Source: Nocardioides marmorisolisilvae
GTDB lineage: Bacteria > Actinomycetota > Actinomycetes > Propionibacteriales > Nocardioidaceae
Reading direction: 5' to 3'
DNA: 64,000 bases
Assembly: GCF_003725775.1 (NCBI RefSeq)
Contig: NZ_RJSG01000003.1
Location: 175,307-239,306, forward strand
Positions 5,814 to 23,100 of this stretch are shown in pieces. The notes beneath the pieces were generated by a model. That model did not search any database and was not told the DNA's origin. It was given only the letters and a program-made list of their open reading frames with translations. The position numbers and the translations under genes are program-made. How positions within the stretch are numbered: the stretch's first letter is position 1; every line of letters begins with the position of its first letter.

Positions 5814-6620
5814 TCAACCCATGGGTGTGTCGAAGATGGATGCGAGCTTCAATCCGAGCCAGGGCCGGCGGCCTCCGCGGATCAGCACGCCTCGCAAGGC
5901 CGCGTGCGGGGTGCTCATTCGGCCGTAGATGTTCAGCAGGAACGCAGGAGCAGGTCCGCCCAGCACCACGTCGGGCGGTGCGCCGGCCTGGCTGCTGTCG
6001 ACGACCCGCGCGGACCCGTGATTGACGAGAAGGGTGTGCGGTCGCGCGCCTTTGACCCGGAACTCGAACGACGCCTCCATGTCCTGGGTTGTCTCCGTGC
6101 TCACGACACCGGGCATGATCTGGAAGTTCGCGTTCAACACCAGAAGGGCGTCCCGCGGCTCGATCGGCCACGGTCGACCGCCGGTCCGAGCAACGTCGTA
6201 GCCGTGCATCAACAGCTCACCGAGCATGTTCCCCCAGCCACCGAACGCGTCGATGCGCCCCCCGAAATGGAATGGGTAGGTTGCTTCAGCGTCCAGCTTC
6301 AGGTCCTGCATCAGAGCCTGCTGGTGGCGCAGTTCCTCGAGGACCTCGGCCAGAGAGCGGTGCGCCTCGGCAGCGAGTTCGACACGGTTCTGCTCATCGA
6401 CCCCCGACATCGTCAGACTCAAGCCCTCAGCGGAGGTCAGGTCGCGTTCTGTGTAACGACGGAAGACCGTCAAGACGTGTGCCGCAACCTGCGCCACGGT
6501 CCAATCCCCATCGCCGACGCGTGCGTTGTCCGACACCTCGGACACCACGGTCGCGAACCGTGCGAATGCCAGCGCTTCGCGCCGCTGCAGTTCCTCGAAG
6601 GACGTTGAAATTAGACTCAT
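5814..6620 (-). CDS. Maleylpyruvate isomerase/DinB-like (MDMPI_N) protein
   Basis: A 268-aa protein of the DinB/MDMPI superfamily, four-helix-bundle enzymes many of which use mycothiol or bind a metal. Family features seen: the GDGDWTVAQVAAHV block near residue 40 carrying a putative metal-ligand His, a second His in the block GELLMHGYDVARTGGRPW near residue 130, and a C-terminal SCP2-like half. First gene of the leftward P450 operon, with GGAGG seven bases before the ATG. Possible role in thiol-dependent detoxification (inference from family). Confidence 0.75.
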   Translation of the reverse strand: MSLISTSFEELQRREALAFARFATVVSEVSDNARVGDGDWTVAQVAAHVLTVFRRYTERDLTSAEGLSLTMSGVDEQNRVELAAEAHRSLAEVLEELRHQQALMQDLKLDAEATYPFHFGGRIDAFGGWGNMLGELLMHGYDVARTGGRPWPIEPRDALLVLNANFQIMPGVVSTETTQDMEASFEFRVKGARPHTLLVNHGSARVVDSSQAGAPPDVVLGGPAPAFLLNIYGRMSTPHAALRGVLIRGGRRPWLGLKLASIFDTPMG

Positions 6621-6633
6621 CGGACCACCTCCG

Positions 6634-6654
6634 GACAGTCCAACTTAGACTGTC
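6634..6654. promoter_or_regulatory. Probable PadR operator (inverted repeat)
   Basis: Perfect inverted repeat GACAGTC-N7-GACTGTC in the 59-bp gap between the divergent MDMPI and padR-like genes. A third half-site GACTGTC occurs at 6673-6679, immediately before the padR ATG. The position fits autorepression and control of the P450 operon by the adjacent regulator. Confidence 0.6.
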
Positions 6655-6679
6655 GCTTCACAGTGTAGAATGGACTGTC

Positions 6680-7363
6680 ATGGAGGACGTTGGCAAGACC
6701 CCACCTGAAGAAACTTCTGACGGACAGACGCTGACGTCGATCAATGCCCTCTCTGTTCTTGGACTGCTCTCGGTCGCTCCCATGACTGCTTACGGGCTCG
6801 CCGAACAGATCCAACGCGCCCTCAGCTTCTTGTGGCCGGTCAGCCGCAGCCTCCTCCTGGGTCAGCCCAAGAAGCTCGCCGAGGCCGGGCTTGTCGAGAC
6901 CCTGCCGCCCGCGCCCGGGAGCCGAGCATCTAAGCGCTGGGCGGCCACCGAAACCGGTCGCGCCGTGTTCAGGAAATGGCTAAGCACCGACGTCGAGACC
7001 ACCCGCATCTCCTCCGAGATCGGCCTCCGCCTGGTTTTCTCGGACCAGGGAAGCCTGGAATCTCTCCAGCGACAGCTTGAGATCAGGCGCCAACAAATCA
7101 TCGAGAACTACCGCCAGGCACTCGCCCTGACCGACGGCTACCTCGCCAACCAAGGACCCTTTCCTGGCCGGCTACACATCATCGCTGCCACCCTCCTCCT
7201 CACCGAAGGCCACGCCGAGGGCGAGCTGCGCGGAGTGGAAGCAGCACAAACACTGGTAGAGACCTGGGCAGACACGACAACCCCTGAACCAGCCCGCGAC
7301 CTTGCCGTGATCGAGCAAGTACGCGAACGAATCCTCGAAACCCTTGCACGACTTGAAGCATGA
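6680..7363 (+). CDS. PadR-family transcriptional regulator
   Basis: A 227-aa regulator with an N-terminal winged helix (ALSVLGLLSVAPMTAYGLAE, then the recognition-helix region ending with LVETLPP) and a C-terminal Vir-type helical dimerisation domain, as in PadR proteins with long C-terminal parts. The ATG at 6680 is chosen because it starts right before the conserved winged helix; longer in-frame starts would read across the divergent gene. There is no strong ribosome site. Divergent from the MDMPI/P450 operon across the inverted repeat at 6634-6654, so it probably represses that operon and itself. Confidence 0.85.
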   Translation: MEDVGKTPPEETSDGQTLTSINALSVLGLLSVAPMTAYGLAEQIQRALSFLWPVSRSLLLGQPKKLAEAGLVETLPPAPGSRASKRWAATETGRAVFRKWLSTDVETTRISSEIGLRLVFSDQGSLESLQRQLEIRRQQIIENYRQALALTDGYLANQGPFPGRLHIIAATLLLTEGHAEGELRGVEAAQTLVETWADTTTPEPARDLAVIEQVRERILETLARLEA

Positions 7364-7441
7364 CCTCGCGTTGGACGAGCCTCCGCACCGCGGATCTCGG
7401 CAGATCCGGACGCGGGCCGCTCTAGCACATAGAGTGCGACG

Positions 7442-7807
7442 GTGGACACCCTGAACACGGGCGGCCTGATCCGACGAAGCCCAGTCCGGCATCCTCGCTG
7501 GCGTCGCGCAGCACTCGCCTTGGTCGTCCTGCTTGCCCTGGGCGGTCTCGTACAGGCGGTGCACATTCATCACCAAGACGGCCAGTGGGCTCTGGTCCCG
7601 TCCGTTTCCCCGGACCGCCTGACGGTAGACGGTCGCGACTACAGGCGCGGTGATCTCGATAAGCAGCCGACCGACTGGGTGAGGCGAGGCACCACCTCGG
7701 GCGGAGGGACGATCTACACGCCTGCGGGTTTCAACGGAACTCCAACTGTGCTTTGGGTTCGCAAGGGCAACAAGGTCTGGGGCTACGACCTGATCGGTGG
7801 CCCTTAG
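7442..7807 (+). CDS. Hypothetical small membrane-anchored protein
   Basis: A 121-aa protein from a GTG start. It has a basic N-terminus, one TM segment (about residues 25-42, ALALVVLLALGGLVQAV), and an extracytoplasmic tail of short beta-like stretches. No family recognised. It stands alone between the padR-like gene and a 290-bp gap; codon choice looks coding (GC-rich third positions). Confidence 0.5.
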   Translation: MDTLNTGGLIRRSPVRHPRWRRAALALVVLLALGGLVQAVHIHHQDGQWALVPSVSPDRLTVDGRDYRRGDLDKQPTDWVRRGTTSGGGTIYTPAGFNGTPTVLWVRKGNKVWGYDLIGGP

Positions 7808-8097: not shown

Positions 8098-9099
8098 TCA
8101 GGCGGTAGCAGTGTCCTCGACAATCTCCCACCCATCGCCGAAGTCGGGCTGCTCTGCGTTTCGCTTCCACTGTCCGTGCCGGCCGAGGAGGTTCATGACG
8201 GCCTGCACCGGCGCGAAGGCTTGAAACGAGCCGGGCGTGATGCCCCGATGGATGGCGTCGTTGCGCATGTCAACAAGCTCCTGGAGGCCAGCTGTGTCAA
8301 CGTCCAGGTCGATGTCGGCCTTCTCGACAATGGCGACGAGCTCTCCGAGTGGCTGCTTGCCCAGCTTCTCTAACTTCTTGCGGTAGTCGCCGTTGGGCAT
8401 GTTGGCTGCGGTGAGCGAGGTCGAGATGAGGCGGTGCAGAACGATCTCGGCCGCAGAGGCTGCGTCGATGACCGAGCGACGGTAGTGCCCGCGCCCGTAG
8501 GCGTTGCGGGAGTCTCGACTGAGGGTTTCCTCCAGCGGCGGCTCGTGGCCGGCAGCCACGAGCTCGAGAAGCTTCCGCCACGCTTGCGCCGGGACCGGCA
8601 TGACCCGCGGCGTGGTCAGTGTGAGCGCGAGGGGCCCGTCCGTCGTGGGTTCCGGGTCGAGCATCGTGAGCTGTGCCCCATGCGACGTAGCGCTGTACAC
8701 CCGGTGGTTCGGGTCCAAGTCCTGCCCGGTCATTGCCTCGGACCACGTTCGGACTGCGTCGAACCACAGGTCGATTACACGCGCCAGTTCGTATGGAAGG
8801 TTTAGGGGGTCGCCAACTTCGGTGGTCGTTTGCACGACGATCCGGCACAGCGCGGTCGACTCGGGGTCGGAGGAGAACGCCGCGAACTGCTGAGTCCACA
8901 CGATGAGGTCCGACGAGGAGTCGACAGTTGTAGGAACGTTCACGCCTTCGATCTGCGGAGGACTTCCGACCGGCCCTGCGGCGCCCGGCATCACGACGTC
9001 GAAAGTCAGGTTGCCGATGCCGGTGCCGATGCGCTCGCCGAGGACCTCCGTCGAGATCCAGATGGGGACCGGCAACTCGTAGATCGCGGTGACGCTCAT
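8098..9099 (-). CDS. Unknown protein with C-terminal HEPN-like helical domain
   Basis: A 333-aa protein starting MSVTAIYELPVP (ATG at 9099). The N-terminal two thirds look like a beta-rich domain I do not recognise. The C-terminal about 110 residues are helical and contain MRNDAIHRG, an R-x4-H arrangement as in HEPN RNases and HEPN accessory proteins; the preceding helices (AAEIVLHRLI) also fit that fold. It is divergent from the NACHT-nuclease gene with 198 bp between starts, so the two may share a promoter region. A toxin, sensor or nucleotide-binding role is possible; the HEPN call is from motif spacing only. Confidence 0.5.
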   Translation of the reverse strand: MSVTAIYELPVPIWISTEVLGERIGTGIGNLTFDVVMPGAAGPVGSPPQIEGVNVPTTVDSSSDLIVWTQQFAAFSSDPESTALCRIVVQTTTEVGDPLNLPYELARVIDLWFDAVRTWSEAMTGQDLDPNHRVYSATSHGAQLTMLDPEPTTDGPLALTLTTPRVMPVPAQAWRKLLELVAAGHEPPLEETLSRDSRNAYGRGHYRRSVIDAASAAEIVLHRLISTSLTAANMPNGDYRKKLEKLGKQPLGELVAIVEKADIDLDVDTAGLQELVDMRNDAIHRGITPGSFQAFAPVQAVMNLLGRHGQWKRNAEQPDFGDGWEIVEDTATA

Positions 9100-9297
9100 G
9101 GTTAACTTCCTGTCGCTTCGTGGCTCCAGCGTAGGCCGCTCGGGACAGCCAAACCCAACGGATTTCCGCTGCCCTCGCATCGCCGTCGAGGCTTGCCCGC
9201 GGTGCCGGCGGCCCCACGGGTCGCGCTCGCCGAAGCCCTCTGGCCGCGCCGCGTCGTGAGAGACTCACCGCGGACTTGAACTGGACAAGGAGCGCAC

Positions 9298-12114
9298 TTG
9301 CCGTACGACCTCGACCGGATGAGCGCCCTTGGTTTCCAGGACGCTGCTGCCGCGCTCGCCGTGGCGCAGTTCGGGCCGATCGTTAGGCGCCTGGGTCGCG
9401 GCAAGGACGGTGGCCGCGACATGGAGGCCAACGGCGTACTGGTGTGGTCGGGTACCGACGGCAGTCCCGGCGAAGCCTGGGATGGCTACAGCGTCTTCCA
9501 GGTCAAGCATCACGAGCGCCCGTCACGCTCCAAGGCCGACGCTCAGTGGCTGTGGGCTGAGATTCGCAAGGAACTGATGGCGTGGGCTGACCCAGATTCC
9601 AACCGTGCGCAGGTTCCGAAGCACCTGGTGTTCGTCACGAACGTACGTCTGTCCCCGGAGCCCGGCGCTGGCGGCTTGGAGTACGTGGGAACCAGAATCG
9701 AGGAGTTCTTCGCTGACCTGGCCGACACAAGTCAGGATGTCGATCCCGTTGCGAGCGAACGGCGGGCTCGCCGCCAACGGCTCAGCGCGCTGAAGAGGTG
9801 GAAGGTCGTCGAGGGCAACCAGCTTGATGCCTGGCTCGACGTACACGACGGCGTTCGCCGCGCGTACGGAGCATTCCTGACCTCGGGCGACGTCCTTGCC
9901 GACCTGATTCGGCTCAACCCAGAGCTACCCGCCGACAAGCTCGAGCCTGCCCTTCGGGTTCACGCACGCAACTCCTTGGTGAGAGACAGGAACATCTACT
10001 TCGACGAGGCTGGCGGCGAAGGGGCGGGGGTGCCACTAGACCGAATTGCAGTGGACCTTCCTGTCCGCGTGCGCGCCACGGGTGAGGCTGCTCGCACCAT
10101 CGCGTACACCCTCGACCGAGGCGAGCATGTACTCAGCCCCAAGATCTCGACCATCGACAAGCCGCGCCACATCGTGCTCACAGGCGCCCCCGGCAACGGC
10201 AAGACGACGATCACCCGATTCCTAGTCCAGGCCTACCGCGCGGCGATGCTGGCCGAGATGACAAGCCTCGGCGAGGACCATTCGGAGGTCATCAACGGCA
10301 CCGAGCAGAAGCTCAAGCAACTTCGGCGGACTCTTCCAAGTCATCGGCGCTGGGCCATACGGATCGACCTGGCCGAGTTCGCAAAGGGCTACATCGACAA
10401 CGAGCGAAAGTCGTTGATGTCGTTCATCGCCCGCCAGGTGACGTCGCAGACCTACTCGCGCAAGCTCGAGCCGTGGCAGATGAAGGACTGGATGGCCACC
10501 TGGCCCTGGTTCATCGCTCTCGACGGACTCGACGAGGTTTCAGAGCCTGTTGTCCGCAAGTGGGTCATCAGCTGCGTGCACGAGTTTATTGCCGACGCCG
10601 AGGCCGACTATGCGGACCTGCTCTGCCTGGTCACCACCCGTCCGACCGGGTACGTGGACGAGATGTCCAAGTCTCAGTTCGACCGTCTGGACCTAACCGA
10701 CCTCACCACCGCGGAGGCCCTCGCTTACGGCCACCTGGTAACCGAGATTCGTCTGCACACGGACTCCGCCCGCATCGAACGTGTTGACTCCTTGCTGCGT
10801 AGCGCCGCCGCGAACGACAACCTGAGACACCTGCTCCGCACGCCCCTTCAGGTGCAGATCATGTCCATCATCGCCGAGGGCGCCGGTTCGCTCGATCCTG
10901 ACCGTTTCCGATTGTTCTGGCGCTACTACGACGTAGTTGCCCGACGAGAGCAAGCCAAGGAGCACACCCGATTCGCAGAGATATTGCGAGATCACGGTCA
11001 ACAGGTCCTCGACCTCCACGAACGCGTCGGCCTCGAGCTCCAGCGTCGCAGCGAATCGGCTGACGGAGGCACCGCGACCATGTCAGAGGAGGATCTGGCA
11101 GCGATCGCGTGGCATGTCCTCCTTGACGACGAGTTCGACCCTGCCGGCAAGGATTCGCGGCTCCTAGAACGTATCGTCCAGGCCGCCACCCACCGGCTCG
11201 TTCTCCTTGTGCCTCGCGCCGAAGGCTACGGGTTCGACGTGCGCTCCCTGCAAGAGATGATGGCTGCGCGCCGCCTCACGACCGGTGCCCTTGATACCGT
11301 CCTGGAACGACTGCAGCTACTTGCCCCGAGCCCGCATTGGCGTAACACCTGGCTCTTCGCCGCCGGGCGCATCTTCTCCGAACCTCAAGACCATCAGCAC
11401 GAGAGACTCATCGACCTGGTCGAGAACATAGACGCCGGTGTCGTTGACCGCTTCTCGAGCATCGCCCCCGTCGGGCCCTACCTCGCCTGGGACATGCTCG
11501 ACGACGGCATGGCCTCGGCCAAGCCCAAGTGGTTGCGCAGACTGGTCGATCTCGGCATGACCGCCATTGACTACCCAGCGCCACAACCAGTCGAGGACTT
11601 CATTTCCTTGGCCGTAAGGATGAGCGAGTTCCGCGACGATCTCCGCATCCGCGTTCGCGACTCCCTCAAAGCGTCGTTGATTGGCGACACGAGCAGCCGC
11701 GTGAACGCGACGTCGCTCATGACAGGGGTCGGCGCGTACACCGATGCGGTCCCGGCCCACCCCGACGTGCGCCTGCTGGCCCAGGTCAAGCCCGAGCCTG
11801 GACGGTCGGCCAGGCCCGACCCCGTCGGAGCATGGGAGTACTTCAACGACGCACTGGAGAACCTGGCACCCGATGACGTGAGCGCCGATGTGGCTGACGC
11901 CGCGGCGGCGCTCCTGGCCGCGCGGACGAGGCCACTCACCAGCGACGAGCGGACGAAGCTGGAAGCGACAGCCCTCTCCCCAGATGCCACCGAACTCCTC
12001 GAGGTGGCGTTGGAGAAGGTTGTGCGTGTCGAGCCAAAGGTCGCGGCGGCGTGCTTTGAGGTGGCGCGAACCATGACGGCACGCCGTGAACTGGCCGAGT
12101 TCGTCGCGCCCTAG
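9298..12114 (+). CDS. Mrr-type nuclease-NACHT NTPase fusion (bacterial NLR-like antiphage protein)
   Basis: A 938-aa multidomain protein. The TTG at 9298 is used as start because AAGGAG lies just upstream and the nuclease domain begins at once. Residues about 1-140 look like an Mrr/PD-(D/E)xK nuclease, with GKDGGRD (catalytic Asp) and a following FQVKHH (the QxK signature). A NACHT-type NTPase follows: Walker A GAPGNGKTT near residue 295, Walker B LDGLDEV near residue 409, and a sensor-like VTTRPTGY near 450. The C-terminal half is helical and repeat-like, probably the sensor. This matches STAND/NACHT defence proteins that oligomerise on a phage cue and unleash an effector; here the predicted effector is DNA cleavage. 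Divergent from a HEPN-like gene. Confidence 0.8.
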   Translation: MPYDLDRMSALGFQDAAAALAVAQFGPIVRRLGRGKDGGRDMEANGVLVWSGTDGSPGEAWDGYSVFQVKHHERPSRSKADAQWLWAEIRKELMAWADPDSNRAQVPKHLVFVTNVRLSPEPGAGGLEYVGTRIEEFFADLADTSQDVDPVASERRARRQRLSALKRWKVVEGNQLDAWLDVHDGVRRAYGAFLTSGDVLADLIRLNPELPADKLEPALRVHARNSLVRDRNIYFDEAGGEGAGVPLDRIAVDLPVRVRATGEAARTIAYTLDRGEHVLSPKISTIDKPRHIVLTGAPGNGKTTITRFLVQAYRAAMLAEMTSLGEDHSEVINGTEQKLKQLRRTLPSHRRWAIRIDLAEFAKGYIDNERKSLMSFIARQVTSQTYSRKLEPWQMKDWMATWPWFIALDGLDEVSEPVVRKWVISCVHEFIADAEADYADLLCLVTTRPTGYVDEMSKSQFDRLDLTDLTTAEALAYGHLVTEIRLHTDSARIERVDSLLRSAAANDNLRHLLRTPLQVQIMSIIAEGAGSLDPDRFRLFWRYYDVVARREQAKEHTRFAEILRDHGQQVLDLHERVGLELQRRSESADGGTATMSEEDLAAIAWHVLLDDEFDPAGKDSRLLERIVQAATHRLVLLVPRAEGYGFDVRSLQEMMAARRLTTGALDTVLERLQLLAPSPHWRNTWLFAAGRIFSEPQDHQHERLIDLVENIDAGVVDRFSSIAPVGPYLAWDMLDDGMASAKPKWLRRLVDLGMTAIDYPAPQPVEDFISLAVRMSEFRDDLRIRVRDSLKASLIGDTSSRVNATSLMTGVGAYTDAVPAHPDVRLLAQVKPEPGRSARPDPVGAWEYFNDALENLAPDDVSADVADAAAALLAARTRPLTSDERTKLEATALSPDATELLEVALEKVVRVEPKVAAACFEVARTMTARRELAEFVAP

Positions 12115-12900: not shown

Positions 12901-13734
12901 GTGGCGAACGACATCGACCTGAAGGCCGCAATCAATGCGGTGTCGGACGTGGTGCAGAACCGCCCACGGCCCCTCCGTGAGTTTGACCAGATCTATATGA
13001 AGACCGGCGACATGGTTATGCAGAGCGAGTTTGTCTCCCGATGGGCAGATGGGAAACGCCTTGCATTCATCGGAGACGGCGACGCCATCAGTGTGTGCAC
13101 CGCGTACTTCTCGGCAAAGGAAATCCTGGGTACCGGACCCCGACACATCACGGTGTTCGACTTCGACGAACGGATCGTCCGGGGTATCCACCGGTTCGCG
13201 GAACACGAGGGGATCGAGAATCTCGACGCAGTTCTCTACAACTGCCTAGACGCGTTCCCGGATGCAGAACCGTTTGACTGCTTTTACACGAACCCTCCGT
13301 GGGGTGCGAGCAATGACGGCGAGAGCGTGAAGGTCTTCACACAGCGCGGAATGGAGGCACTTCATTTCGAAGGCGAAGGCGCAATCGTCATCGCTGATGA
13401 TTCGGACCTTGCTTGGCCCAAGCAGGTCCTGCACAGCGTGCAGGAGTTCGCGATCGAGAATGACTTCTTCGTCAGCCGGATGATGCCGCAGCTGCACTCG
13501 TACCACCTGGACGATGCACCGGACCTCAAATCGTGCAACCTGATCATCTCCTCGCTGCCTGGGAGCGGTCGCGCGCCGGCCAGTGAAGCAATCCGTGACG
13601 CCGAGGTGCTCGAGCACTTTTATGGCAAGTCTGCGAGCCCGTACGTGAGGTACGTTCGCGAAACACGACGCTTGGACTACGGCAAGGCCAATGAGTCTGA
13701 GTACGAGTTCGAACTCTTGGAAGGGCAGGACTAA
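12901..13734 (+). CDS. BpsA/DUF43-like aminopropyltransferase-fold protein
   Basis: A 277-aa Rossmann-fold enzyme from a GTG start. Motifs resemble the N4-bis(aminopropyl)spermidine synthase (BpsA, DUF43) family: a nucleotide-binding FIGDGDAIS near residue 57, the acidic FDFDER near 87, and the catalytic YTNPPWG near 128. BpsA transfers aminopropyl groups from decarboxylated S-adenosylmethionine to polyamines. The NPPW motif is also shared with N6-adenine/N4-cytosine methyltransferases, so an SAM-dependent modification of another amine or nucleic acid is the main alternative. No target-recognition domain is visible. Its stop overlaps the next start (TAATG), so both are co-translated. Confidence 0.65.
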   Translation: MANDIDLKAAINAVSDVVQNRPRPLREFDQIYMKTGDMVMQSEFVSRWADGKRLAFIGDGDAISVCTAYFSAKEILGTGPRHITVFDFDERIVRGIHRFAEHEGIENLDAVLYNCLDAFPDAEPFDCFYTNPPWGASNDGESVKVFTQRGMEALHFEGEGAIVIADDSDLAWPKQVLHSVQEFAIENDFFVSRMMPQLHSYHLDDAPDLKSCNLIISSLPGSGRAPASEAIRDAEVLEHFYGKSASPYVRYVRETRRLDYGKANESEYEFELLEGQD

Positions 13735-14282
13735 TGGCCATCGAACCCGGCGACAAGGTCTTGTTCATGAAGATCGGGATCCACGCCAGCGAGTCCCTTG
13801 AGTCGATCATCGAACGAAAGCGAGCCGAGATCCGGGATGAGGGCTTCGCTTTTTGGGGCTATGGCGGGAACACCTGCCACCCGACGAGGATGGTCCAACC
13901 CTTCGCACTTTCGACGACTGGCCCGATCGTCCTAGCGATGCACCCCATGGTGTCTAACCACTTCGCCGACCCGATTAGGGCGAAGCAATACTCCCCAGAT
14001 GGCATTACCTGGACGGACGTCCCTTCTGGTATCAACTGCGTTGGCTCACGACATGCACTGCTTATCGACTCACTCGAACCGGCCTCGTTCGACCTCGATC
14101 TCTCGAAAACTCGGGTTGCGCTCGGACCAAGTCGGGGCAAGGTTGGAACGAACTACATCAAGGCCCGCGTCGACAAGGCGTGCCTCGAAGTCGTCGAAGC
14201 GCCGGAGGGTGAAGCCCAAACGATCGAGATCGGCTTCCAGGCGATGTTGGCAGATCCGTACGCGGTCTTCCTGCGCTACTGA
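13734..14282 (+). CDS. Unknown protein, family with F-W-G motif (copy 1)
   Basis: A 182-aa soluble protein I cannot assign to a named family. Conserved-looking blocks: KIGIHASESLESIIERK near residue 13, FAFWGYGGNTCHPT near 38, then PIVLAMHPMVS, GSRHALLIDSLEP and a final LADPYAVFLRY. The same blocks, in the same order, occur in the product of 16020-16646 (KYGTEAGETAETILRRK, VFLWGIGNAIGPS, RVVFTPMLS, GRAHYALVCRSVEP, LVAPY), so these are two members of one family. It overlaps the BpsA-like gene by 1 bp, so a substrate-binding, adaptor or second catalytic role with that enzyme is plausible (inference). The 3' end overlaps the convergent PIN gene by 7 bp. Confidence 0.7.
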   Translation: MAIEPGDKVLFMKIGIHASESLESIIERKRAEIRDEGFAFWGYGGNTCHPTRMVQPFALSTTGPIVLAMHPMVSNHFADPIRAKQYSPDGITWTDVPSGINCVGSRHALLIDSLEPASFDLDLSKTRVALGPSRGKVGTNYIKARVDKACLEVVEAPEGEAQTIEIGFQAMLADPYAVFLRY

Positions 14283-14953
14283 ACCAGCCGGAGCATCAGC
14301 CCAGGAAGAAGGACCGTCGGCGCAGCTTTCCGTAGGTCTTCGATGTAGCTGCGCAGACCGTGAGGGTAGAAGTCGGCCGCAACGGCCGGATTGGTGAACT
14401 GGAAACAGATGCTCAACGCGGTGTCGACTGCGGGCTGGGCAATGACCACGGCCCGAGTCGAGCTAACCCCGAGACGTTCGGTGATGAGAACGAACGCCTG
14501 CTCGAGGCAAGCGATCCGCTCGTTCAGTCTGCCCATCAGCTCAATCGGACCGATCAGCTGCTCCGCCGCAATCACTGCGCGTTTGTCACCCGTCAGAATC
14601 GTCGGCCAGCCCCGGCTAATGGCGATCGCACACAACTGACTCTCTCCGACATCGAGCGACCCCCCGGACATAGCCGCGGCTTCCTCCAACTCCGCTGCGA
14701 GTGCGATCTCTGCCTCGGTCGGCTCAAGAACCGCAGCGCGATTGACGAATGCATCGAGGTGAGCAGTCGCTGCGGCGGGATCCGACGCCTTTCGCTTGAG
14801 GGCTCGCCTTGACGTGAACTTTGCAGCACCGATAAGCCCTGTCCGCCGATCGCAGTCGGTCTCGCATCCGGGATGGGCGATGGCTTCGAGGAGCCCGTAG
14901 GCCGCGAGCTTGATGAGCACGTCGGTATCTACGAGCAACTCACACATCGGCAT
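14276..14953 (-). CDS. PIN-domain-like nuclease paired with ImmA/IrrE protein
   Basis: A 225-aa protein with a PIN-type N-terminus (LLVDTDVLIKLAAYGLLEA) and a downstream acidic block GGSLDVGESQLCAIA followed by ILTGDKRA, matching the order of acidic residues in PIN RNases. The C-terminal 90 residues do not resemble a PIN domain. The ATG at 14953 (or the second Met at 14947) overlaps the end of the upstream ImmA/IrrE gene, so translation is coupled. Pairs of a PIN/DUF4411-type protein with an Xre/ImmA protease are known as toxin-antitoxin-like modules; the toxin would be this RNase. Confidence 0.65.
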   Translation of the reverse strand: MPMCELLVDTDVLIKLAAYGLLEAIAHPGCETDCDRRTGLIGAAKFTSRRALKRKASDPAAATAHLDAFVNRAAVLEPTEAEIALAAELEEAAAMSGGSLDVGESQLCAIAISRGWPTILTGDKRAVIAAEQLIGPIELMGRLNERIACLEQAFVLITERLGVSSTRAVVIAQPAVDTALSICFQFTNPAVAADFYPHGLRSYIEDLRKAAPTVLLPGLMLRLVQ

Positions 14954-15941
14954 CAGCGATCCCGAGAACTGCGTAGAGATAGTCCTGAACGTCATCTGCA
15001 ACAGAAGCCCAATCGACTTCACGATGAACGAGTTCGTTGATGTACGAGGACACGTCCTGGTTGCCCGGCGGAATGATCTTCAACGCCCCGTATGCCTTGT
15101 CCCACTTCTGGGTGGCGTGACCTGCGCAAAGCGCGAGGACACCCGGATCGATCTGGAGCTGAGGTCCCTGCGCCATGACCGCGTCAGCCAGTTGGCTCGC
15201 AGAGAATCGCTCGGTGTCAGCAACGACGCTGGGGTTGGATTGGCCGGTCAATAACTCGAGGGCGTACTCGTCCGCGGCGGCCTCTTCATCGTCGCCGTCG
15301 TCCGCCGATTGCAGTGGGTCCTCCATGTCCACAACCGCTTCCCCACCATCGACGTGCCCGAGCATTATGTGCGCCAACTCGTGGGCAACAGTGAACGCAG
15401 TTGGAGCGAGGTAAGACTCCGACCTCGCGAGCAAGATTGCGGCCCGATCATCGATGCCAACAGACATCGCGTGCATCCGCTTCGCGTTGAGCGGGAACAC
15501 CCTGAGCTGGGCCACTGGGATTCCCAGACCCCAGCAAACGACTAGCAACGAGTCCGCGTCCACAACCGGGCTCGAGGCGAGAATCGACTCTCGAATCTCA
15601 TGCGACGCAAATCGTTGATGCTGGACGCTTGGGACGCCTTGCATGAGCGCGCCGCCAACAGCCCGACCGAAGGAAGACAACGCAGCCTGTTCCTCGGTCA
15701 TGGCGGACGTTAGATGCTTGAACTTCGTCTCGTCGCGCCAAACGAAGCGCGCCTCGCCTTCGAGAAGCGCTCGGGGCGAAAGGCCCAGACGCCGCGCGAC
15801 GGTGAACGTCAGTTCAGCCGTAGCGGACAGCGATCCCTCAGCTTCAGAACTCCACCACTGCGGCCAAGCGGCATCGATGGCTGCGTTCGCGATTCCGGCA
15901 CGCCGTAACTCAACCCGAAGTTGCTCTGGAGATTGCACCAC
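14940..15941 (-). CDS. ImmA/IrrE-family zinc metallopeptidase with Xre-like N-terminus
   Basis: A 333-aa protein. GTG at 15941 is preferred because AGGAGG lies six bases upstream; the frame continues further upstream but would overlap the divergent gene. The N-terminal about 110 residues are helical with a stretch (TARRLGLS-like, ending RALLEGEARF) seen in Xre-COG2856 proteins. The C-terminal peptidase has the zinc motif VAHELAHIMLGH near residue 185 and a downstream DEEAAADEYALELL Glu/Asp block for the third ligand. ImmA/IrrE proteases cleave or inactivate regulators after a DNA-damage or phage signal. Probably the antitoxin/regulator half of the pair with the PIN gene. Confidence 0.8.
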   Translation of the reverse strand: MVQSPEQLRVELRRAGIANAAIDAAWPQWWSSEAEGSLSATAELTFTVARRLGLSPRALLEGEARFVWRDETKFKHLTSAMTEEQAALSSFGRAVGGALMQGVPSVQHQRFASHEIRESILASSPVVDADSLLVVCWGLGIPVAQLRVFPLNAKRMHAMSVGIDDRAAILLARSESYLAPTAFTVAHELAHIMLGHVDGGEAVVDMEDPLQSADDGDDEEAAADEYALELLTGQSNPSVVADTERFSASQLADAVMAQGPQLQIDPGVLALCAGHATQKWDKAYGALKIIPPGNQDVSSYINELVHREVDWASVADDVQDYLYAVLGIADADV

Positions 15942-16019
15942 TGGATGCCTCCTATGGCCGGGGGAACACGCGTGGGCCCCGTCCCAAATCGGGAAGCGAC
16001 TGTGATCTATTGTCCAGAT

Positions 16020-16646
16020 ATGCGGCAAGAATTCGAGGTAGATACGCCGATGGGGCTCCCGCCGATGTTCTGCTGGACAAAGTACGGGACAGAGGCCGGC
16101 GAGACTGCAGAGACAATCTTGCGACGTAAGGAAGCCGAGCGGAATCTCAATGGCGGCGTGTTCCTGTGGGGGATTGGCAACGCGATCGGCCCGTCGATCG
16201 AGCATCTTCTGGAAGAGACGTCGACGCCGCGGGTGGTGTTCACTCCGATGCTCTCTCGGCCAGCCGCCAAAGACATCGCCCCGCCCGCGGTCGGCATGTG
16301 GCGCCGCGGCGTAGGCATGGATGGGACCGAAGTAGAGCTGCCCGAGCATTCACGAGTGACGAGTCGACTCTCAAACTCCGGCCGCGCCCACTACGCCCTG
16401 GTATGCCGAAGCGTTGAACCACTATTTGATGGTGGTACTCGAAGCGCTGAAGAAGGGTTTGAAGCTGCGCACGTCGTCAACCTTCGATCAGGCTCCCGAG
16501 TGGGCGCATCTCAGGTAACGTCCGTAGTGCGGCGGGTCGCCTGCGCGCTCGGTTCCGGCCGCAAGAGCTACCAGGTGACCTTCGTGGCAGACCTAGTCGC
16601 CCCGTACCTGATTCGCCTTACTGATCACGTCGTGGTCAGCGCGTAA
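16020..16646 (+). CDS. Unknown protein, family with F-W-G motif (copy 2)
   Basis: A 208-aa protein of the same unnamed family as the product of 13734-14282; matched blocks are KYGTEAGETAETILRRK, VFLWGIGNAIGPS, RVVFTPMLS, GRAHYALVCRSVEP and the C-terminal FVADLVAPYLIRL. The start is uncertain: ATG at 16020 has no ribosome site, while an in-frame GTG at 16002 is preceded by GGGAAG and would add six residues. It is divergent from the ImmA/IrrE gene across about 70 bp, so the protease protein may regulate both. Function unknown. Confidence 0.65.
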   Translation: MRQEFEVDTPMGLPPMFCWTKYGTEAGETAETILRRKEAERNLNGGVFLWGIGNAIGPSIEHLLEETSTPRVVFTPMLSRPAAKDIAPPAVGMWRRGVGMDGTEVELPEHSRVTSRLSNSGRAHYALVCRSVEPLFDGGTRSAEEGFEAAHVVNLRSGSRVGASQVTSVVRRVACALGSGRKSYQVTFVADLVAPYLIRLTDHVVVSA

Positions 16647-17114
16647 CTCGACAATCGGGTCGATCAGAGCCCGCAAGATCGCCGACGGCAAGACGCACAT
16701 GGATGCCACTCGCTGCTCAAGCGGTGGATCTCTCACGCTCTCTATTGCCAGGTCATGCTCGACTAGCGAGCCAGGGCTCTGGCGGTCGATTCAGCGAGCG
16801 TCGCACCCATCAGTGAGCCAGACCTTGTCGAAATTGGGGTTGACTACCAGAGAGTTGAGAGCGCCAGATGGCCAAGAGACCACAATGGGTCTCACCAGCC
16901 CGTTGCGTAAGCCTCGGGGCTGATTGGAGGTTTGGCTTGGCCAGGTGACGACCCACCTGAGTTACCGGGTAACCCCTTGGTCGGACTAGCGGGCGACTTG
17001 CGATCCTCGTTGGTCTAGATAGCAGTGACACGGCGCCATCCGAACTGGTAGATCTTGCGCCCTCTCTTTTGTGGATTTGAATGCTGCGCTCTTTTCGGGT
17101 TGTCGGAGGTGCAC
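16647..17114. other. Intergenic gap upstream of RHS gene, with a palindrome
   Basis: 468 bp with no credible gene. Contains the perfect palindrome GTTACC-G-GGTAAC at 16961-16973, about 140 bp upstream of the RHS start, a possible regulator site. Otherwise nothing recognised. Confidence 0.35.
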
Positions 17115-20100
17115 GTGTCGAGTCGTACTTGGTTCCAGGTAGTTGCTGCCGGCGTTGTTCTCTCACTCCTGGGCGCGCTGGGGGGACCGGCTGCGGCGTC
17201 TGTGCCTGTGGGTTCGTTCCTCGCGCCGATGTCGAGCACTGCTGCTTCTAATGCCGACGGCCCGACCGTTGCGGAGGATCAAGATGCTGCGATGGCGGCT
17301 GCAATGGCTCGAGGTTCGCGGGTCGAGGACGCGTCGCGTGCTACGGCGTCGACGGCTACCTACGCGAATCCGGATGGGACCTGGACGACCGAGCTGTACT
17401 CGGGTGTCGTCCGTTCCAAGGACGACCAGGGCAAGTGGGTTGCCATCGATCCAAGTCTGGAGAAAGAGGCGGGGGCTTTCGAGCCTGTTGCCACTGCCTT
17501 CGATGCGAGTTACTCGGATGGTGGTGACAAGACGATTGGGTCCGTGGATACCGGCGACGGCTCCTCGGTGACAGTTGGCTGGCCGACGAGTCTGCCTGCA
17601 CCGGAGGTTGATGATGATCAGCTGATCTACTCTGACGTGGCCAGCCACACCGACCTGGTGGTTTCGTCGCTAGTGAGTGGCTTCAACTACTCGATCGTGC
17701 TGGATCAGGCGCCTGCCGCCGATGCGGCACCGATTGTGTACCGAATCCCGCTGACCTTTGCAGGTGGCACAGCGCAGGTCCAGGATGACGGATCGATTGT
17801 TTTCCGCGATGGATCCACGACCTTGGCGACTTTGACCGCGCCGGTCATGTGGGATGCGGCCAACGCGTCGGTGGACGGCGAACGGCATGCGGTGGAGGCC
17901 TCCGTTGAGGGGGCCGGGATGTCGCGCACGTTGGTGTTAAAGCCGGACATGGGCTTCCTTCAGGACCCGCAGACGACCTACCCGGTCACGGTGGACCCGA
18001 CTGTCTATCCAAATGTCAGTGCCGACACGTGGCTGGATAATGTCAGCCCGAACACGAGTCAGATCAATAGTGGTGAACTCCGGATCGGATCGGTGAATCT
18101 TGGCTTCAACAAAGATCGTTCCTATTTGACGTTCGACCTGTCGTCCCTGGCTGGTCTGTCTGGTGCGGCCGTTTCGGCGAATCTGGTCGTGTCCAACTTC
18201 GACGCCTCGACCTGCAGCGCGAGTGCGGTGCGCATGTCGCGAGTTACAAGTTCTTACAACGTCGCCACGATGACGTGGTCGACGCAGCCGACGACCACTG
18301 CTACCGACTCGACAACAACCAACGAGTCGCACGGCGCAAGCTCTCCCTGCGCGGCTGAAGGCCCGATGACTTGGGATGCCAGTGCCATCGTGAGTTACTG
18401 GCTGGCGAATCCGACCCAGAACTACGGCGTGCAGCTCAAGGCCGATACCGAGTCGAACGCAACCGGCTACCGCAAGCTGCGCTCGATGGAGAACGGAGAC
18501 CCGAGCAAGGCGCCGAAACTGGTCGTCACCTACAACTTCCCGCCATCAACACCTGCGCCCTCGGTGGTGAACCCGAGCGTGACGAGCGGGACAAACCAAG
18601 TGACGAACGCTGCGCGGCCGGAGTTTTCTGCAGTTCTCTCCGACCCCGATGGCTCCCCGGTCAGCGGCGATTTCGAGCTCCGCCAAGGCATTCTCGGCAC
18701 CGTGGTGGACAGCTGGACCAGCCCGATCGTGCCTTCAGGCTCAACGGTGACCCATCAGGTGCCGACAAACCTGACCAACGGGAGCACCTACAAAGCCTAT
18801 TGGCGGGCCAAGGACGCAAGCCTCACATCGCCCTGGTCGACCGTCCAAAACGTCCTGGTCGATCTCGCAGCACCACCTAGCCCCGGGGTGACCTGCCCGA
18901 GCTACACCAACGGCACCTGGTACGACACTCGGCCGGCAGCCTCCACGACCTGCACGGTGACGACGTCAGGTGACGCCACCGCCGTTTCGGTGACCCTCAA
19001 CGGCAATCAGGTCACGATGCCCCCGCTGTCCGGAGGGTCAACTGCGAAGTCGTTCGACATAGCAACCGACGACGTGTTCGAGCTTGGTGTGACAGCGCAG
19101 GACCTGGCTGGCAACCAGGCCACTACCTCCTTCACGACCGGAACGGGCGCGGGCCGACTGCTGAGCCCGACCCCGGGCACGTTCAGCAAGACCAGCTTCG
19201 CAGTCGCGGCAGGCTCCAAGGCTGCGGCCACGAGCGGAGCGCTCCAATGGCGCCCCAGCGGCGGGTCCACCTGGACCAACGCAACGCAAGTAACAGCGGG
19301 CGGTACAGCCTGGTCCGGAACCGTCACAAGTACGGGCGCGATCGCGAAAACCCCAACCTTGACCTGGTCTGCCAAGGATGAGCCGGGGATCGCCGACCCG
19401 TCCGACATCGAGACCAGAACCTGCTTCAACTACTCCGGCGGAACCTCGCGGTGCACGGCCGGTGTTGTCGTCACGCTGACCAATAACCTGGCGCCATCCG
19501 CGCCCAACGGAGTGACGCTTTCACCCTGCGTTGGTGCGTGTTCCAGCTTCACCACGTCGAGCACGACTCCTGAGTTCCTGATGCAGGCCTCTGACCCCGA
19601 GGGTGCAGATCTCACCTACCGGCTTCAAATCCGCCCGACTGGGGGCGGCGGGAACCTCGCCGACCTCTCCGTAGGCCCCACGCCGTCCTCGGGACAGAAC
19701 GCAATCCGGGTGGGCCCAGGCGTTCTCAGTCCGTCGACCACCTACGAGTTCAGGACGGGAGCCGCGGACAGCTCCAGCACGACCTGGTCACCCTGGACAG
19801 GGTTGAGTGTCACAGCCGCCGCAAGTGGTGGCACGGTGATCAGCAGCGACCTGACCATCTCGACAGACACCACTTGGACCAAGGCCAACTCTCCCTACGT
19901 GCTCTCGCGTCCGGTAACCGTCGCCTCTGGGGCAACGTTGACGCTTGAGCCAGGAGTCGTCGTCAAGGTCATCAACCCCATTGACGTCTACGGCTTGATC
20001 TCTGCCGAAGGCACTTTGGCTGACCCGATCGTGTTCACCTCCTACAAGGACGACTCAGTCGGCGGCGACAGCAACGGAGACGGTACGACTTCGTTGCCCA

Positions 20101-23100
20101 CCCCTGGTGATTACGGTCGAGCCATCGGATTCTGGAACCCCACCCTTCCGAGCCTGGGCCTCGATCGCGAAAGCGTCAAGACTCGAGGTGACAGTGTTCT
20201 CAAGAATGTTTCCTTCCGCTACGGCGCCGGAGACACCTCAGGTAGTCCGTGCTTCGCCGGCAACTCACTGATCAGTCTTAGCTCGCTCAGCCGGGTGCGC
20301 ATCGAGCACTCGGAGTTCTCCGCGCTTGCCGAGAACGCGATCATGAACCCGGGTCCCGACCCCGAGCTCAACTCACTTACCGTTCGGTTCTCCAGGTTCG
20401 GTCCGAACACTTCAGGATGTGCGCTGTCGCAAGTCGGGGCGGGAACCTTTTACGGCAACGTCTTTCAGGACCCCAACCACGGCAACGTCGATTCCCTGTC
20501 GACCTCAACGACCGGATACCACCTAAGTTTCGTCGACAACTGGTTCTTCGGTCCGATCACGCTCAACATCGACGGGTTCGGCCAGCCGCTCTACCCTCGC
20601 GACAAGATCAACTTCGAAGGCAACGCGATCCTTCATGGATGGCTAGGAGAGAACAACCAGTTCTTCGACCAGCCCGAAGATCTGTCGAACAACTGGTGGG
20701 GCCACGTTCTGCTCTCGCCGCCCGCCTGCTGGTACGGCCCTGGGGTCAACTATCCCGCGTACAAGAACGCCGGCTCGAACTTCACCGAGTGCGTCGGAAT
20801 CAACACATACACGGACCACAAGTACGCGCTCGCGGTTCTGCCGGCCCTGGAAGCTCCACCGGCTTGGCTGAATCCAGGACTCGAGTCCAACCCGGCAGCC
20901 ATGCCCAACATGAGCCCCGACGCACTCCTGGGATCAGGTAACGGCGAGTATGCCTACACGCCGACCGGCACCCAAGCGGATCCCGTCAACTCCGCCACCG
21001 GCTCCTACTTCGAACAGCACACCGACGCCGTCGAGCCCTCAGTAGGGCTGGACGTCGTCGCGACTCGCAGCTACAACTCACTCGGGACTGCCACCGGCTC
21101 GTTCGGCGTCGGATGGAGCTTCGGATACGACGAACACCTGAGCTTCCCGTCATCGGCTCTCGTCCGGTTCTCCGCGGGCGACGGTCAAGTCCTAGAATTT
21201 GGAAGGTCCGGGAACACCTTCACACCGACCGCAGGCGTGACCGCCGACCTCGAACGAGACGGCACCGACTACCTGATCAAGACCAAGCCAGGTCTGACCT
21301 ACCGGTTCGAGCAGTACGGGCGCCTAACCCAGATCAGCGACAGGCACACAAACGCGGTGGCGCTCACTTACGACGCCACCGGCCATCTCGCCTCCGCGAG
21401 CAACGGCGCACGTCAACTCACCTTTACCTATACCGGTGACCGCCTGACCAAGGTTTTCCAACCAGGCGCCACCGGAACCGCAGACGACAAGTCCGTTGTT
21501 TACGGCTACACCAACGAGCAACTCAGCAGCGTCACCGACCAGAACGGCGCCACCACGCGCTACACCTACAACGCGCAACGCCGCCTCGCCTCGACTACCG
21601 ACCCGCTTGGCCACGTCGTCATGACACTCGCCTACGACGTCTCCAGCGGTCGTGTCACCGATCAGTGGGACGCGCTGAACAACCACAGCACCTTCGCGTG
21701 GAATCCGACCACGCAGACGGCGGTCATGACCGATCCGCGCGGCAACCCATGGACCGACGTCTACTCCGGAACGACCCTCCTCAAGCGGACCGACCCCGAG
21801 GGTCGCACCTGGAAGTACACCCGCGACGCCAACCTCCAAGTGACGAGTTTCGTCGACCCCAACAAGGCCATTACGACCCTGGACTACGACGAGCGGGGGA
21901 ACGTGATCGGGTCCTCCGGCCCGCTCGGCACGATCTCGACCGAGTACAACAGCCTCGACCTCCCAACCCGAACAGTCGACTCTCGGCACATCGTCACGCT
22001 GATGGCATACAACAGCGCCGGGGATCTGACGAAGATCACGCGGCCAACGGACCCTGGAGCGCCGCTCATCGAGGAGTCCTTCACCTACAACGCGAACGGG
22101 ACCTTGAACACCGCCACCGACGCGCTCGGGCACACGACCGGCTACACCTACACCGCGTCCGGTGACCTTGCCACGGTGACAACCCCCGGCGGCAAGACGA
22201 CCACCTACTCCTACCTCGGTGGCGCTAGCGGCCACGGACTCCTTGGTTCGACCACCACGCCCCGGACCAAGACAACGAACTACACCTATGACCAAGTCGG
22301 ACGACTGCTGACCGCCGTCGATCCGCTTAACCGCACAACGACGTCCAACGCCTACAACTCGGCCGGATGGCTGACATCGTCGACCGATGCGAAGAGCCGA
22401 ACCACCGTGCTCGACTACGACGCGGCAGGGCACATCGTCAAGGTGACCAGCCCGGATACGTCGGCGCTGCCCGTGCTGTACGAGTACGACGCGAACGGAA
22501 ACCAGAACAAGGTGACCGACCCGGCCGGGCGGATCACCACCACGGCCTACAACGGTGACAACGAGGTCAGCAGTACCACCAGCCCGACCGGCTCGACGTC
22601 CTACACCCGGACCAAGCTCGGCCAAATCCAGACCGTGACAACGCCGGACGCACTCACGACGACGCTGTCGTACGACACCGCCGGGCGATTGGACTACGTC
22701 GACTATCCCGGTTCATCGACCGCTGACGTCAGCTACAGGTACGACTCAACTGGGAATCGGTCATCGATGACCGACGGCTCCGGAACCGTCACCTACGCCT
22801 ACGATCGACTTAATCAGGTTGCGAGCGTTCAGCGCGCCGGCACCGCCGCGACCAGTTACACCTACCTGGGCGACGGGTCGCTGAGCGAGGTCACCTATCC
22901 CACCGGGACGAAGGCAAGGTACACCTACGACCTGGACCGGAACATCTCGACGGTCGCCACGAAGCCGTCGGGGGGTTCGACCTACACGACGCAAGGTACC
23001 TACACCTGGACAGATGACGGGCTGCCAGCCACCGCGGTCACAGGCGTCGGGCTCGGAGCCTCCACGCGCACCTACACCTACGACGACGCCGACAGGGTCA

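Follow-up and report, generated by a model that had tools for sequence, protein, structure and literature searches.

What could hold together, in one compact locus, an enzyme related to the polyamine synthase BpsA, a metallopeptidase of the ImmA/IrrE type, a PIN-like putative nuclease and two small proteins, here called U1 and U2, that resemble each other? This question is raised by a stretch of 64,000 nucleotides from Nocardioides marmorisolisilvae (assembly GCF_003725775.1, contig NZ_RJSG01000003.1, positions 175,307 to 239,306 of the forward strand; hereafter the window), part of a 3.83-Mb genome. The best overall explanation, to which we give a probability of about one half, is a mobile conflict locus with a putative marking half (the enzyme, probably a methyltransferase, and U1), a putative executing half (ImmA and PIN), and U2 as the presumed link between the two.

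The evidence that carries this reading is, in the first place, the conservation of the gene set. A genome scan with a five-row U1 alignment retrieved 95 relatives (the window U1 alone as query confirmed none), and the best 80 of these gave 80 genome loci, which together with four plasmid loci and the window make up a set of 85, near-duplicates (L017-L019, L022-L025) being counted within it. According to profile searches and gene bookkeeping, all five genes are present in 78/85 loci, and five of the seven exceptions (L025, L038, L041, L064 and L074) are incomplete at contig ends; thus, the five genes constitute one conserved unit, and a chance neighbourhood of a toxin-antitoxin pair and an enzyme was ruled out. 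The two remaining exceptions are L081, a short contig with another gene order, a partial methyltransferase and no PIN gene found, and L083, in which a sensitive search of full flanks detected no U2. The idea that the five genes might never be met together in other genomes, considered in the first-pass annotation, is refuted by this survey, while its six-gene-sized unit holds as a unit, the number of genes here being five.

Spacing in these loci is tight. The gap between the methyltransferase and U1 genes ranges from -38 to +15 bases (84 loci), and that between ImmA and PIN, both present in 82/85 loci, from -20 to +35 bases (81 loci). The ImmA and U2 genes diverge in 45 loci and point the same way in 35, one change on the methyltransferase tree being enough to account for this, and 24/85 have a helix-turn-helix (HTH) gene placed between the two. 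An adenylate-kinase-like gene, whose product falls within the adenylate kinase family of archaeal type (best E 3e-14) and matches Pfam AAA_17, accompanies 35/85 loci, in 26 of the 34 scored cases upstream of the methyltransferase gene and on the same strand. It was rejected as a core part because of this partial presence and of the 16 changes that it needs on the quick tree, where short contigs are scored as absence.

The co-occurrence in the 85 loci is conditioned on U1, and searches of plasmids and viruses give the unconditioned view. Among 72,556 plasmid records, the five with a full-length methyltransferase match (two of them near-identical) are the same five that carry U1 and the kinase, and in two further records the match covers only 37 residues. 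In IMG/VR, the methyltransferase profile found two contigs, each of which carries the complete five-gene set. Leaving aside second copies next to complete systems, the methyltransferase was always met with the set or at contig ends, and U1 alone was met once, on a phage contig. As to such second copies, an extra methyltransferase-U1 pair stands beside the system in L048 (2673-4090) and L051 (4029-5413), with no other extra part in the flanks examined, and a lone second methyltransferase in L041 (4694-5452). In two of the four plasmid loci U2 is found in two reading-frame pieces (L003:13143-13804 and L006:12088-12760), which may reflect broken genes or sequencing errors, and in L036 ImmA is in two pieces.

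U1 and U2 are homologous beyond chance. Their local alignment scores 73, a value reached by none of 2000 shuffles (mean 29.8, standard deviation 4.65), phmmer relates them at E 5e-7 in a single comparison, and the comparison of their family profiles (77 U1 and 72 U2 rows) gives a probability of 97.7% (E 2e-12, 168 columns), a repeat giving 97.7 and 96.9% according to the direction; BLASTP found nothing significant between them (best E 2.8). The rows used are 77 of 85 for U1 and 72 of 80 for U2, plasmid rows, near-duplicates and one fragment being excluded; alignments A6, A7, A8 and A9 hold 36, 32, 41 and 39 rows. In 17 alignment columns at least 80% of both families carry the same residue, among them (U1/U2 numbering) I25/33, R28/36, K29/37, E32/40, W41/50, G42/51, G44/53 and W93/94. 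The near-invariant features of both thus comprise a helix with the motif I..RK..E, a strand bearing WGxG, another tryptophan, the residue pair AL and hydrophobic positions at the C-terminus, in agreement with the ordered motifs that had been noticed over most of their length. Predicted structures are confident for the two proteins: AlphaFold2 gives U1 a predicted local distance difference test score (pLDDT) of 91.8 and a predicted template modelling score (pTM) of 0.87, and U2 values of 91.3 and 0.88. Both models open with the same elements in the same order (a strand, a helix, a short strand that contains the WG motif, then another helix and strand), so that the unrelated folds named as a refutation in the first-pass annotation were not observed, and both continue with a beta-rich second half whose last element is one long strand.

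The family could not be named in the first-pass annotation, and the libraries agree: neither window protein matches a family in Pfam, NCBIfam, PADLOC or PHROGs. Their relatives (72 U2 and 77 U1 members) show scattered weak Pfam matches only, and among solved sequences the U2 family has no match and the U1 family only chance-level ones, nearly all to antibodies. U1 and U2 are, by the libraries searched, a new protein family.

The enzyme had been read as a BpsA/DUF43-like aminopropyltransferase. It matches Pfam BpsA_C (E 4e-22), and its nearest solved structures are those of BpsA (5XNC and 2QM3, E about 1e-13), aligned over the catalytic domain (profile positions 12-155). Since this alignment begins at residue 110 of the T. 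kodakarensis protein (chain residue 130, offset 20), the N-terminal part of BpsA, its first ~109 residues, has no counterpart. The sequence NPPW is a motif of methyltransferases acting on exocyclic or amide nitrogens, and NPPWG, GDGD and DFD are invariant in 82/82 proteins; the amino-methyltransferase motif [DNS]PP[YFW] and the acidic residues of the S-adenosylmethionine (SAM) site are both present. The GDDD of BpsA has become GDGD, with glycine at the position of Asp159 in all 82, and Asp160 is retained as Asp61 of the window enzyme; Asp225, in the DPPE stretch of BpsA, corresponds to Asn131 of NPPWG, again in 82/82, and Glu259 lies outside the aligned stretch. In passages of a 2026 review (PMC12979288), the GDDD motif is called indispensable, Asp159 and Asp160 are described as essential for placing the aminopropyl group, and Asp225 is listed among the residues surrounding spermidine. 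The loss of an acidic residue holding the aminopropyl group, together with NPPW, points to ordinary SAM and to an amino group as what the enzyme uses, and it is probable that the enzyme is a methyltransferase rather than an aminopropyltransferase. Cross-matches to NCBIfam models are weak and mixed among 36 members: adenine DNA methyltransferase in eight (best E 0.006), HemK in two (0.005), PrmC in four (E 0.02) and polyamine aminopropyltransferase in three (E 0.026). PADLOC offers a partial cross-match to mad2 (E 8e-10).

In the other pair, the window ImmA matches Pfam Peptidase_M78 at E 0.002, below the cut-off, the ImmA of L003 being above it. It matches phrog_18577 (E 4e-47; function unknown in PHROGs), has a partial PADLOC cross-match to capP and others (E 8e-9), and finds CapP (E 0.002) as its sole relative among solved sequences at E 0.01. 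H186, E187, H190, E219 and D223 are invariant in 83/83 sequences, with the HExxH motif and the downstream acidic ligand in place. In the alignment of 83 PIN-like proteins, D4/D6 (81/83), a lysine, G98, E99, D118 and TGDK are conserved, and the window protein matches phrog_15597 (E 5e-11; likewise of unknown function there). The PADLOC defence proteins (2023) gave no match for U1, U2 or PIN, and no known system was recognised. In P2-like phage regions of Enterobacter soli, Klebsiella and E. coli (L113, L115, L151), an ImmA-PIN pair occurs by itself, flanked by the replication endonuclease gene on one side and the portal gene on the other; in E. coli, 25 of 5426 genomes have some match to the pair and 13/5426 a match covered to at least 80%, one of them having been opened. 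This interval of P2 is a published hotspot of anti-phage genes, as described in PMC9122126.

The locus is an accessory, mobile gene cassette. Seven phyla are represented among the 80 genomes (Pseudomonadota 53, Actinomycetota 9, Acidobacteriota 8, Cyanobacteriota 6, Myxococcota 2, Chloroflexota 1 and Bacteroidota 1), and the methyltransferase is absent from 23/23 congeneric genomes, the host genome alone being positive in a search of 39 relatives that include these 23. In a sample of 396 genomes of its own phylum, U1 appears in two, the host itself and one with a 44-residue match (E 8e-4), and U2 in the host only. Two plasmids carrying the locus were typed as conjugative. Phylum labels change nine times on the methyltransferase tree (minimum possible 5, shuffled mean 25), a quick tree in which 30 of 79 inner branches are weak, and this is compatible with some transfer across phyla without proving it.

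The neighbourhoods are rich in defence genes. Among the nearest open reading frames on each side (149 of 154 used) there are six phage integrases and four type III restriction-type helicases, and these frames match 130 PADLOC families at E 1e-10, including GajB, PtuA/PtuB, LmuB, AbiEii and methyl-directed restriction, with respect to seven for 110 control frames; the control consists of 110 of the 155 frames in 20 stretches of the host chromosome and families rather than frames are counted, so the contrast is indicative only.

On the phage side, records in GenBank gave no match for U1 (two queries), the methyltransferase, U2 or the Enterobacter ImmA. A 12-kb phage contig carries a lone U1 homologue (L139:2815-3363) with 40% identity to the window U1, situated between capsid-like and tail-like genes (by eye from translations), and the 9.4 kb examined contain nothing else of the system; it keeps 27 of the 29 positions invariant in the U1 alignment, the exceptions being S74 and H76. 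Two similar viral contigs, with one sample number in both names, carry U2 alone (L143:4989-5708 and L144:4809-5690). These lone viral copies may act as decoys directed at the system, or may simply be passengers.

Taking into account that the unit is conserved and accessory, and that ImmA-PIN stands alone in a prophage defence hotspot, a conflict system is the natural reading, and it is likely that the locus is one, for defence or as a toxin-antitoxin system. As to its kind, then, the earlier proposal of a regulated conflict or modification system is well supported; its aminopropyltransferase label did not stand, and its protease-controlled RNase is a putative one.

The comparisons establish the unit, the homology of U1 and U2, the co-occurrence of the genes, their accessory distribution and the intact motifs; each step of the mechanism we infer. 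The methyltransferase and U1, adjacent and probably coupled in translation, would form the marking half, probably modifying a nucleic acid or nucleotide with U1 as the recognition partner, and the extra pairs of L048 and L051 would be added specificities. ImmA and PIN would form the executing half. U2, encoded next to the regulatory genes (HTH/ImmA), probably recognises that same target, or its mark, and so would link recognition to execution. In the resting cell the mark would keep the system quiet, and the appearance of unmarked or wrongly marked nucleic acid would be the trigger, upon which U2 and ImmA would release the PIN nuclease, ImmA cleaving the HTH repressor or another inhibitor. Where present, the HTH product may well be the ImmA substrate, as proposed for the predicted HTH-COG2856-PIN systems in passages of PMC2701414. 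Once released, the nuclease would stop growth or destroy the invader. In this self-marking form the circuit is put forward tentatively, the odds being somewhat against it. A bolder version, which we regard as unlikely, would see here a new class of prokaryotic immune system that employs a single reader family, of undescribed fold, in duplicate. U1 would be the recognition subunit of the methyltransferase and U2 the sensor for a nuclease under protease control, marking and killing would be decided on one common target, and the lone U1 and U2 of L139, L143 and L144 might serve as counter-measures.

Several observations weigh against this explanation. ImmA occurs in 11 plasmid records, in 6/11 outside the five-gene system; in the four of these that were opened (L113-L116) PIN adjoins ImmA, and profiles detected no other part in the flanks examined, that of L116 being short on one side. 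U2 occurs in 12 plasmid records, in 7/12 outside the system, and in the three opened (L110-L112) no methyltransferase, U1, PIN, ImmA or kinase was detected by profile, an HTH-like gene being divergent from U2 in L112 (by eye). The U2 contigs of IMG/VR are six: two with the complete system, L145 with ImmA and PIN, L148 with a partial ImmA, and L143 and L144 with U2 alone. Thus, ImmA-PIN and U2 also exist independently. The methyltransferase-U1 pair without ImmA-PIN was met only at contig ends, so its separate role is one that we infer. Partial correlations of gene distances are 0.64 for ImmA and methyltransferase, 0.36 for U2 and U1 and only 0.17 for ImmA and PIN, values that a single interacting machine fits better than two independent halves, the method being crude and the U1-U2 excess, which fades inside each orientation class, carrying little weight. 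In the window there is no HTH gene between ImmA and U2. The PIN-like protein was assigned by motif, with Pfam PIN below the cut-off (E 0.1) and 2/41 members at E <= 0.1, and it has no solved relative at E <= 1. Finally, no direct sign of nucleic-acid binding was obtained for U1 and U2, whose profile comparison with EVE and ASCH stays at the level of unrelated controls.

In L110, a Rhizobium phaseoli plasmid, U2 directly follows a 330-residue protein with an HTH-like stretch (6003-7681; by eye), and the surroundings contain TcmP and DUF5131 genes and a restriction-modification locus.

In a first alternative, U1 and U2 would be PUA-superfamily (YTH/EVE/ASCH-like) readers of a base methylated by the NPPW enzyme, in a writer-reader-nuclease circuit. 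The superfamily recurs in both Foldseek lists against the PDB. For U1 it occupies ranks 3, 5, 8, 9, 19 and 21 (E 1.6 and worse), with YTHDF1, THYN1 with 5-methylcytosine DNA, 2ar1, which we take to be an EVE domain, and an activating signal cointegrator (ASCH-type) protein; for U2 rank 1 is YTHDC1 (best E 0.33), and 37 of the 50 rows listed bear the YTH label (domains of YTHDC1, YTHDC2 and CPSF30). Against it, no match is significant (template modelling scores, taken relative to the query, are 0.16-0.25), most of the YTH rows repeat a single protein, and the viral structure library shows no YTH-type or otherwise telling match. By sequence, neither family matches the superfamily in Pfam or the PDB, and membership of EVE or ASCH was rejected, since hhalign gave 0.05-0.22% vs 0.12-2.29% for unrelated families of the same locus, with small test alignments (7 EVE and 3 ASCH rows) and no YTH alignment among those compared. 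The lead is kept because it fits an amino-methyltransferase partner, the two nearly invariant tryptophans at aligned positions in both families and, according to passages of PMC7641849, a parallel in predicted (PIN)-GNAT-EVE + ASCH + AAA_17 operons; the strand-helix-strand-helix-strand opening of both models also suits it. A YTH/EVE-like reader fold is a weak hint from the predicted models, and this alternative as a whole is rather doubtful.

Unlikely, too, is a pathway of nucleotides or small molecules, in which kinase and methyltransferase would make a modified nucleotide (a signal or an antimetabolite) that U1 and U2 bind and that switches ImmA-PIN. The family and position of the optional kinase suit such a pathway, as does the resemblance of ImmA to CapP, the protease of regulation in cyclic oligonucleotide-based antiphage signalling systems (CBASS), and the enzyme (277 residues) shows no added DNA-recognition domain. 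Against it, the kinase was not found in 50/85 loci (some flanks short) and changes 16 times on the quick tree, so it is not essential; the window is one of the 50 by profile search, and the whole host genome has only two weak P-loop matches (E 0.005 and 0.04).

Lower still we place a mobile module acting purely as a toxin-antitoxin addiction system, without any part in defence, in which U2 or HTH would neutralise the PIN toxin and the methyltransferase would modify toxin, inhibitor or RNA target. Plasmid carriage speaks for it, as do a Methylomonas plasmid in which U2 is divergent from an HTH-like gene (by eye) and the rest of the system was not found, and the predicted HTH-COG2856-PIN modules in passages of PMC2701414; the defence-rich neighbourhoods and the hotspot position of ImmA-PIN point beyond addiction. 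Finally, a branched-chain polyamine synthase beside a separate toxin-antitoxin system, as would agree with the BpsA_C match, the kept Asp160, the three of 36 members weakly matching the aminopropyltransferase model and the annotation of 4/5 full-length plasmid matches as bis-aminopropyl spermidine synthase family, is dismissed as very improbable on the active-site replacements in 82/82 proteins, the missing N-terminal part and a coupling to the other four genes in 78/85 loci that is not chance.

The gene layout behind the conflict locus favoured here is collected in the table below; all five genes are placed as in the first-pass annotation, which had also described correctly one U copy overlapping the BpsA-like gene and the other divergent from an ImmA that overlaps PIN. 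The ImmA/PIN overlap reads ATGTGTGA, for which reason the PIN start is likely 14947 and not 15022. The tail-to-tail overlap of U1 and PIN is 7 bases.

Table 1. Features of the five-gene locus (positions in the window).
Feature	Position	Strand	Remarks
SAM-dependent methyltransferase-like protein, BpsA_C family	12901..13734	+	277 amino acids, GTG start; motifs GDGD, DFD, NPPWG
U1, undescribed family	13734..14282	+	182 amino acids; start overlaps methyltransferase stop codon as TAATG
PIN-like nuclease, putative	14276..14947	-	223 amino acids; converges on U1; 8-base overlap of its start with the ImmA stop
ImmA/IrrE-type metallopeptidase	14940..15941	-	333 amino acids; GTG start at 15941, GGAGG ahead; HExxH and downstream acidic residues
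Divergent intergenic region ImmA/U2	15942..16019		78 bases; site of the HTH gene in 24/85 loci
U2, paralogue of U1	16020..16646	+	208 amino acids; C-terminus shorter than in most relatives

Directly upstream, a gene at 9298-12114 (+) encodes a large protein with a P-loop NTPase region, STAND/NACHT-like by weak Pfam matches, whose N-terminal DGGRD...FQVKHH presumably represents a PD-(D/E)XK nuclease motif; it is likely a second defence gene beside the five-gene system. The product of 8098-9180 (-) has a C-terminal stretch MRNDAIHRG, in our estimation reminiscent of HEPN/abortive-infection domains, and found no match in PADLOC or NCBIfam (a Pfam scan was not made). Directly downstream of U2, a gene at 17055-24560 (+) encodes a 2501-residue protein with RHS/YD-type repeats (by eye).

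As far as the searches reach, the system is undescribed. In the open-access literature no paper was found joining bis-aminopropyl spermidine synthase with ImmA or with a toxin, or branched-chain polyamine synthase, methyltransferase and defence, and none from 2018 onwards brings together at least five of the subjects ImmA, PIN domain, methyltransferase, adenylate kinase, defence system and toxin-antitoxin. Its interest lies in a compact locus whose gene set is kept across seven phyla, and in which two of the five proteins have confident predicted structures although the libraries searched contain no entry for their family.

With respect to known systems, CapP-regulated CBASS and restriction-modification serve as a works-like comparison only: a CapP-like protease, or a methyltransferase, a recognition partner and a nuclease in one locus (the last two putative here), are common features, and no cyclase and no recognisable restriction or specificity subunit is found in the five-gene unit. 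BpsA, the N4-bis(aminopropyl)spermidine synthase, shares a homologous catalytic domain (E about 1e-13) and differs in GDDD instead of GDGD, DPPE instead of NPPWG, its N-terminal domain and its gene context; the protein annotated on several plasmids as a member of the polyamine synthase family is probably something else. The (PIN)-GNAT-EVE + ASCH + AAA_17 systems, predicted by Iyer et al. as cited in Bell et al. 2020 (PMC7641849), are described in passages of that paper as operons that also encode another PUA-like protein and, frequently, an AAA_17 protein. Like our locus, they combine a PIN domain (a putative one here) with a group-transfer enzyme and, in many cases, an AAA_17 P-loop protein, and they too have a pair of small proteins, drawn from one superfamily in those operons and from one family here. 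In our locus, however, the enzyme is methyltransferase-like and not an acetyltransferase, U1 and U2 are not detectably EVE or ASCH, a protease is present and the genes are unfused.

The ImmA-PIN pairs of the P2 hotspot lack methyltransferase, U1, U2 and kinase (by profile in L113 and L115, by annotation in L151) and show the same order and tight spacing, with full-length homologues of both window genes in L113 and L115. Makarova et al. 2009 (PMC2701414) predicted three-component toxin-antitoxin systems of the type HTH-COG2856(ImmA)-PIN: the consulted passages mention no methyltransferase, U1 or U2, and our locus has five to seven genes with the HTH as a separate gene, often not found, but in both an ImmA-type protease adjoins a PIN-like gene, HTH stands beside ImmA (24/85 here) and the distribution is accessory. 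With this locus, the long-predicted ImmA-PIN pair gains a set of partners that could explain its trigger.

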